DNA of 38,773 nucleotides, taken from positions 1 through 38,773 of the forward strand of contig JALXCB010000164.1 of the NCBI GenBank assembly GCA_026991225.1, read 5' to 3'. This stretch comes from Anaerolineae bacterium. Lineage in GTDB: Bacteria; Chloroflexota; Anaerolineae; J102. The notes under the pieces are model-generated. The model had not been told where the DNA came from. It saw only the letters and a program-made list of their open reading frames with translations, and made no database searches. The position numbers were made by a program, and so were the translations under genes. Of this stretch, positions 30,524 through 32,383 are shown in pieces (positions within the stretch are counted from its first letter, which is position 1; each line of letters begins with the position of its first letter).

Positions 30524-30707
30524 AGCGAAGGGATTTAATCCGTACGTTGGAGAAGATGGGGGGTGTGTGTTGATTCGACACGGATCAAAACACGATTGGT
30601 ATCAGAACCCAAACACCAAAGTCTCTCAGCCTGTCCCGAGACATCGGGAAATCCATGAGCATCTGGCAAGGCATATCATCAAGATGCTTCGGGATGATAA
30701 GACATGA
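30520..30707 (+). pseudogene. hicA: HicA-like toxin, frameshifted
   Basis: From ATG at 30520 the frame reads MKRRDLIRTLEKMGGVC and stops at TGA 30571-30573. The rest of HicA continues in another frame from 30573 (IRHGSKHDWYQNPNTK, then VPRHREIHEHLARHII) to TGA at 30705-30707, which overlaps the next ATG. Removing two bases of the GTGTGTGT run at 30563-30570 would restore an intact protein of about 61 residues with the family histidine region (R-H-G-S-K-H). The toxin should therefore be inactive unless the sequence has an indel error or slippage occurs. Confidence 0.82.
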
Positions 30708-32383
30708 CGACCCTCATTCAAAACGGCATCCTCGTCACCGAAACCGAAACCTTTCCTGCTGATATTCTGGTCGAAGAGCAGCGCATCGCGGCCATCGGCC
30801 AGAACCTGCCTGCGCCCGCAGACGCGGACGTCATCGACGCCTCGGGCTGCTATGTCCTGCCTGGCATCATCGACCCCCACGTCCACATCCAGCTCGATAC
30901 GGGCGTCTTTCGCACCGCAGATGATTGGGAGACGGGCACGGCCACGGCCGCGCTGGGCGGGGTGACCACGGTCATCGATTTCGCCACCCAGTTTCCTCAC
31001 CAGACCGCGAAAGAGGGCGTCGCCGCCCGCCATCGCGAAGTGCTGGGCGTCGAGACCGCAGACCCGGACGAGCTGGCCCAGGCCCAGCCGCAGACGCCCC
31101 ATCCCCCCTACATTGACTACGCGCTCCACTGTATGCTCACCGTGCTCCCCGATGAGGACGAGGAGCTGGACGCGTGGATGCAGGACCTGCGCGGGGCGGG
31201 CGTCAGCGCCATCAAAATCTACACCACCTACCGCCCTAACTATTACCAGAACGACGCGGAGCTGCTGCGCTCCATGACGGCCGCGGCCAAAGCCGACCTG
31301 GTGGTCATGGTCCACGCGGAGAACGACGCCATCGTCAGCGACGCCACCCAGCGCCTGGTGGCCGCGGGGCGGACGGATCTCAGCAACCATGGCCGGGCCC
31401 GGCCCGGCTTCGCCGAAATCGAGGCCGCGCACCGGGTGCTCTTCCTGGCCGATAAAGCCCGGGCCGAGCTCTACATCGTCCACAACTCCATGGGCCGCAC
31501 CGTCGAACTCATCGCTCAGGCCCGGCAGCGAGGCCAGCGCGTCTGGTCGGAGACCTGCCCGCAATATCTGCTGCTGGATGAGCGCAAGTACGAAGGTGCG
31601 GACGCGTGGCGCTTCATCATGCAGCCGCCCCTGCGCGACCCGTACCAACCCGCGCATCTGTGGCAATTGCTGGCCTCGGGCCGGGTGCACAGCCTGGGCA
31701 CCGACCATTGCGACTATACCCAGGCGCAGAAGCTCGGCCTGCGTCCTTTGCAGGACGACCGCCTCATGGCCCGGCTGGCCGCGCTCGGGCCCCGCGTGCA
31801 AGACGTGATCACCGCCCGCTTCGGGCTGTTCGATGGCCGCCCCCGCACGCAGGAGGAGACCGCCCACTACCTGAACCTGCCCCTGGAGGCCGTGCAGCAG
31901 GCGGAGATGAGCGCGTTCGAGCGGATTCCCGACCTGGGCGAGCGCATGATGGCGCTCATCCAGGACTTGCAGCGCCTGGACCCGGCCGCGACGCCCCCGC
32001 GGCTGCCCTTCACCCAGACGCCCGGGGGGCTGCCCGGCCTGCAAACCGCACTGCCCCTCATGGTCACCTACGGCGTCATGCCGGGCCACATCACCTGGCC
32101 CGACCTGGTGCGGCTGATGAGCGCCAACCCCGCCCGCATCTTCCGGCTGAGCCACCGCAAGGGTGCGCTGCGTCCGGGCCTGGATGCGGATATCGTCATC
32201 TACGATCCCCGCGGCGAATCCGTCATCACCGACGGCGAACAGGCCACCATTGGCGGCTTCACCCCCTACAAAGGCATGAAGGTGACGGGCCGGGTGCGCG
32301 ACACCTTTGTACGGGGGCAGGCCATCGTGCGGGATGGCGAATTGATCGGGCCTCGCGGTTGGGGAAGGTACGTGGCATCATGA
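30704..32383 (+). CDS. dihydropyrimidinase/hydantoinase-like amidohydrolase with sigma-region-4-like insert
   Basis: A 559-residue cyclic amidohydrolase. The metal site is complete: H59 and H61 (DPHVHIQ), the carboxylated K171 ([10 protein letters not shown]), H204 (VMVHAEND), H260 (YIVHNSMG) and D334 (GTDHCDYT). The C-terminal [15 protein letters not shown] and DADIVIYDP are typical of D-hydantoinase/dihydropyrimidinase, which open cyclic diamides. It is about 80-90 residues longer than usual. The extra part (about 341-436) contains residues 352-408, which look like region 4 of a primary sigma factor ([11 protein letters not shown] at 372-382, then EE at 384-385 and V-Q-Q-A-E at 397-401). 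It overlaps hicA' and RNase Z by ATGA on both sides. The substrate is not visible; no other pyrimidine catabolism genes are present. Confidence 0.9.

Follow-up and report, generated by a model that had tools for sequence, protein, structure and literature searches.

Results

The Hydantoinase Locus and Its Insert

The window, by which we mean the whole stretch of DNA analysed (38,773 nucleotides, contig JALXCB010000164.1 of an Anaerolineae bacterium), contains an ORF on the plus strand at 30704-32383 that starts with ATG and encodes a protein of 559 amino acids. The features of this ORF, and the evidence used to assign them, are as follows:

30704..32383, plus strand: insert-bearing dihydropyrimidinase/D-hydantoinase of the amidohydrolase superfamily (TIGR02033, 391.2 bits; PF01979; structure match to 1k1d; invariant metal ligands)
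31733..32008, plus strand: whole inserted segment, residues 344-435 (alignments; absent from relatives)
31757..31927, plus strand: sigma-70 region 4 core, residues 352-408 (PF04545; PDB profile search; Foldseek)
31757..31819, plus strand: helices 352-359 and 363-372, the equivalent of region 4.1 (AlphaFold model with DSSP; motif alignment)
31817..31849, plus strand: turn motif, residues 372-382, with R372, G374, D377, G378 and R381 invariant in 16 of 16 sequences
31850..31924, plus strand: helix-turn-helix, helices 383-390 and 394-407 (recognition helix, degenerate here)
31934..31972, plus strand: additional fifth helix, residues 411-423, ahead of the linker to the barrel (AlphaFold model)

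The insert starts after the motif G-T-D-H-C-D-Y-T-x-A-Q-K, about nine residues beyond the last metal ligand, D334, and stops at P-F-T-Q-T-P-G-G; alignments place it at a single, precise site in the enzyme. In an alignment of 117 homologues, the window protein has 96 residues between these anchors and the insert-bearing proteins have 92, 96 or 104, whereas insert-free homologues have about 9-12 and rarely 18 or 25. The original prediction, made from the letters of the window, placed a sigma region 4 look-alike at residues 352-408, in a normally short loop that follows D334. The mapping to 31757-31927 was exact and the loop is indeed short in relatives; as for its extent, the core stood, but the full insert is larger, about 90 residues with the fifth helix at 411-423. 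Two deep-branching hydantoinases (L046 and L047) have Q-K-R-E-F-T-E at the insertion site, and without an insert the loop is short and variable. An Anaerolineales hydantoinase (L049) has a 25-residue loop there with no evident relation to sigma region 4, and the site may perhaps be permissive to insertions.

The whole 559-residue protein matched Amidohydro_1, Amidohydro_3 and Sigma70_r4 (PF04545) as its sole Pfam families, and sigma factor regions 2 and 3 were not found in it. Its TIGR02033 match is split by the insert and scores 391.2 bits relative to an equivalog cut-off of 393.25; two other insert-bearing proteins (L008, 402 bits, and L025, 408 bits) and insert-free relatives (437 and 449 bits) are over the cut-off. 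The whole-protein model matched D-hydantoinase 1k1d with a TM of 0.94 by target length (Foldseek). It was found that the metal ligands H59, H61, K171, H204, H260 and D334, the carboxylated lysine position included, are invariant in 16 insert-bearing and 22 insert-free proteins, as the original prediction of intact ligands around the insert had it, and that just three scaffold positions, all conservative, track with the insert. Therefore, the enzyme that carries the domain is a normal one, with a hydantoinase scaffold that is apparently intact and catalytic chemistry that is apparently kept. Like the TIGR02033 enzymes 1k1d and 1gkp, the window protein has the barrel, the dinuclear metal ligands with a carboxylatable Lys and the C-terminal F-T-x-T-P-G-G substrate loop; unlike them, it carries about 90 additional residues in the loop that follows the metal-ligand Asp.

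Homology to Sigma-70 Region 4

PF04545, which has a curated cut-off of 24.1 bits, matched residues 358-408 of the whole protein (E = 2.5e-8, 33.8 bits) and the isolated 96-residue segment (E = 1.3e-9, 37.8 bits), and was matched by all 16 insert-bearing homologues. Among NCBIfam models, the isolated segment matched those of sigma factors only, with RpoD, SigB and SigC in the lead. A phmmer search of PDB sequences gave Thermotoga maritima RpoD region 4 (1tty_A, E = 7.5e-9) followed by SigA chains, and a profile of the inserts found solved SigA/RpoD region 4 at 2.5e-14. The initial observation that the segment follows region 4 of group 1 sigma factors almost motif for motif is borne out by these matches, that of the isolated segment included.

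In the AlphaFold2 model of the whole protein (56 aligned sequences; mean pLDDT 95.2, pTM 0.93) the insert is confidently placed, with helices at residues 352-359, 363-372, 383-390, 394-407 and 411-423 by DSSP; modelled alone, it reached a pLDDT of 80 and a pTM of 0.68. The predicted structure is the four-helix fold of region 4 with its helix-turn-helix, as had been anticipated, and when the isolated model was submitted to Foldseek, sigma factors filled all 50 best PDB matches (for 4g8x, TM 0.79 by target and rmsd 2.2). The E-values were modest, with a best of 0.01, as they are for short domains of about 60 residues, and the probability was 1.00 for most matches. At positions that we took, from general knowledge of the fold, to form the region 4 core, the inserts are hydrophobic at a frequency of 0.89, compared to 0.20 elsewhere (permutation p<1e-4).

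Residues 352-408 are thus almost certainly a homologous sigma-70 region 4 domain. Helix-turn-helix folds are common, and a helical insert might come to resemble region 4 by chance or convergence; this is extremely improbable given the profile E-value of 2.5e-14, the motif-for-motif identity, including R-x-G-L-x-D-G, and best structure matches that are all sigma factors, and chance resemblance was ruled out on the PF04545, PDB profile and Foldseek matches. Like region 4 of primary sigma factors (RpoD/SigA; 1tty, 4g8x, 1ku3), the domain has the fold, the hydrophobic core and the R-F-G-L-x-D-G-x-x-R-T motif; it differs in being internal to an enzyme, without regions 2-3, in its additional C-terminal helix and, in inserts of the window's family, in a degenerate recognition helix.

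Distribution and Origin of the Insert

Searching homologues for a conserved insert, as had been proposed, yielded 16 genomes of two families: ten of the genes (seven from the window's genus) belong to the window's family, here called f1, and six to a second family of the same class, f20. The insert is present in 6 of 6 f20 genomes examined and in 10 of 20 f1 genomes, the other f1 genomes being without this enzyme or having only a distant homologue. The named relatives of the insert-bearing enzyme are Anaerolineae/Chloroflexota MAGs, and among 400 sampled genomes of the phylum, insert-bearing matches came from the window's family only. An assembly chimera or frameshift artefact was ruled out, the ORF being unbroken in 16 genomes.

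When the insert profile was run on 396 genomes of the class, the same 16 genes scored at least 114 bits; the next matches, at 60 bits or less, are sigma factors, judged by their length and by those coordinates that were checked. No scaffold other than this hydantoinase carries the insert in these 396 genomes, and no viral contig encoding a relative was found; a widespread mobile domain was ruled out on these grounds. In the window's own genome, the profile matched RpoD best (51 bits); a second RpoD-like sigma factor came next (37 bits), and ECF factors scored no more than about 20. Recent copying from the RpoD of the same genome was ruled out on two grounds: the insert and that RpoD agree at some of the motif positions only, and all sigma factors group together, separate from the inserts, in a tree of region 4, which has few columns and is weak. 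The 60 columns of this tree are too few to name the donor sigma factor.

An enzyme tree built without the insert columns places both insert clades in one 24-row group together with insert-free enzymes of two further families (f16 and f31). This tree implies two changes, and a topology with all inserts in one clade was not rejected (p-AU 0.176). Both clades have the insert boundaries and the G-L-x-P lead-in in common, which favours a single gain, and we infer that the insert was gained once, with loss or poor resolution behind the rest.

The ten f1 enzymes have, unrelated to the insert, another additional stretch of about 18 residues (residues ~116-134, 31049-31105) that is absent from f20 and nearly all insert-free relatives.

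DNA-Recognition and Core-Binding Residues

The residues that contact the -35 element are a functional feature of sigma factors and are not required for membership of the fold family. The E. coli RpoD residues published as contacting the -35 element or as core-binding (PMC4943231) were compared with the inserts, in E. coli sigma70 numbering (window protein residue + 190). Recognition-helix residues are kept at 92% in the sigma factors of these bacteria, compared to 19% in f1 and 40% in f20, and core-binding positions at 93%, 52% and 64%, respectively. The -35-contacting recognition-helix residues are mostly lost in f1, where basic residues at DNA-contact positions other than R562 occur at 0.13, equal to background, and in the window protein TRERIRQ has become PLEAVQQ, the replacement of arginines originally pointed out. 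In f20, the recognition helix reads S-R-D-A-I-R-R-L-E-N-D-A-V-R-R-L versus T-R-E-R-I-R-Q-I-E-A-K-A-L-R-K-L: R584, R588, R596 and E585D/E are retained and E574, R586 and Q589 are not. Leaving R562 aside, f20 keeps half of the basic contacts; basic DNA-contact positions taken together stand at 0.57 versus a background of 0.15 (permutation p=0.013).

The original prediction that -35 DNA binding is unlikely thus holds for f1 and only partly for f20, which keeps S-R-D-x-I-R-R. Our best reading is that the insert of the window's lineage would no longer be a promoter reader, a reading not to be extended to all relatives. The retained basic contacts of f20 make that family the most plausible place for a DNA-binding trigger enzyme coupling catabolic flux to transcription. 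Such a role is nevertheless very unlikely overall, considering the 19% retention in f1, the window included, the residues lost in f20 also and the net charge of -1 of the window's region 4 core, although region 4 of the genome's own RpoD is likewise not basic overall. Trigger enzymes with a DNA-binding domain are known, such as PutA, BirA and NadR, in which the domain is terminal and DNA binding is established. What the hydantoinase has in common with them is the pairing of a metabolic enzyme with a transcription-related domain, but its domain is internal and sigma-derived, and DNA binding by it is doubtful.

On the core-binding side, R562, D567-G568 and E575, which are important in sigma factors, are retained in the inserts, and some ancestral binding is possible by this comparison. 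R562 is present in 16 of 16 and position 565 is L or F in 16 of 16 (L in 14, F in 2), with E555 in 5 of 6 f20 inserts. If the domain still bound a region 4 partner (the beta-flap tip helix, an anti-sigma factor or an activator), a nucleobase-catabolism enzyme would be tethered to transcription, or a regulator sequestered. The best Foldseek matches, to sigma-A region 4/beta-flap chimeras, would fit such docking, but these probably stem from the sigma part, full SigA chains aligning over similar lengths. Docking is quite unlikely, with E555 in only 3 of 10 f1 inserts, F563 lost in f20 and in 3 of 10 of f1, and G577 replaced by A or S throughout, and the positions that are kept are also structural. 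More broadly, the captured primary-sigma region 4 might, in one lineage or more, bind DNA, RNA polymerase or a sigma regulator and so connect the opening of nucleobase rings with transcription. This proposition is doubtful; polymerase or DNA binding is less likely than a role as a cap or contact surface, and is likeliest in f20.

Selection on the Insert

NG86-type estimates of dN/dS are about 0.12-0.43 for the insert in most pairs and 0.07-0.22 for the scaffold; the closest pair gave 0.57 for the insert, a value resting on very few changes. Besides the five residues of the turn motif, K343, G345, P348 and L361 are invariant in 16 of 16. The insert evolves faster than the scaffold (between families, for example, 32% versus 58% identity), and by these estimates it is under purifying selection. 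The suggestion that it may be a captured domain is backed by this selection and by its conservation in 16 genomes. A tolerated ornament, accepted by a permissive loop and kept merely to fold without harm, would be expected to look in part like what we see, namely a fast-evolving insert with almost no linked scaffold change in an enzyme whose sisters presumably work without it. We consider this unlikely in view of the purifying selection, the invariant turn motif and the absence of a clear loss in either family.

Discussion

Proposed Capture and Reuse of the Domain at the Active-Site Rim

The explanation that we favour starts in an ancestor of two uncultured families of Anaerolineae-type Chloroflexota, whose D-hydantoinase/dihydropyrimidinase would have received a sigma-70 region 4 in the loop that follows barrel strand 8; among region 4 domains, those of primary (group 1) sigma factors resemble it most. 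The captured domain would have found a new use on the rim of the active site as a rigid module of helices, serving as an interface for contact with a subunit or partner and/or as a lid that modulates access to the active site. The enzyme would keep its catalytic chemistry, and in the window's lineage the domain would have stopped reading promoters. We give this reading as a whole, an ancient capture with reuse at the rim and loss of promoter reading in the window's lineage, a probability of about 0.5. The structural or protein-interaction role of the insert is a tentative assignment, to which we give a little less than an even chance. In P. aeruginosa dihydropyrimidinase, the counterpart of the insertion site is not part of the published dimer-dimer contacts (PMC5832032); therefore, a role at the dimer-dimer interface is not indicated.

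Sigma region 4 is generally seen as a dedicated promoter- and polymerase-binding module. Here an unrelated enzyme carries it within the catalytic domain, and the module is selectively kept in two families with its recognition residues unequally eroded. The parts are known and the architecture appears to be new: literature searches, with subscription papers and preprints outside their scope, found no report of sigma region 4 inside a hydantoinase, in agreement with the original prediction. Taken together, the f1 and f20 inserts could show, as a natural series, how a transcription domain is put to new use, and the insert-bearing hydantoinase is a candidate on which a connection of catabolism with transcription can be tested.

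Gene Neighbourhood

A gene for 8-oxoguanine deaminase lies directly upstream of the insert-bearing hydantoinase in three genomes (G016, G017 and G018) and one gene apart in a fourth (G100). The two f1 copies that were scanned with NF006055 scored 695-699 bits against 532, and the copies in G018 and G100 were identified by BLAST clustering. In the window's genus, the neighbours of the hydantoinase are unrelated and synteny points to no functional partner; the window's genome has a relative of the deaminase gene on another contig. The deaminase neighbour suggests a context of purine or pyrimidine breakdown and does not account for the domain. A role of the enzyme in breaking down nucleobases is a reasonable guess.

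These deaminase-hydantoinase neighbourhoods (L144:5224-7481, L145:5792-8084, L150:7663-9024 and L151:2396-3757) belong to two different families. At L145, a Sir2-type deacetylase gene stands between the deaminase and the hydantoinase, and at L144, an aminotransferase-like gene adjoins. A second, divergent hydantoinase-like gene (L144:12293-13735) is present in genome G017, about 7 kb from the insert-bearing one.
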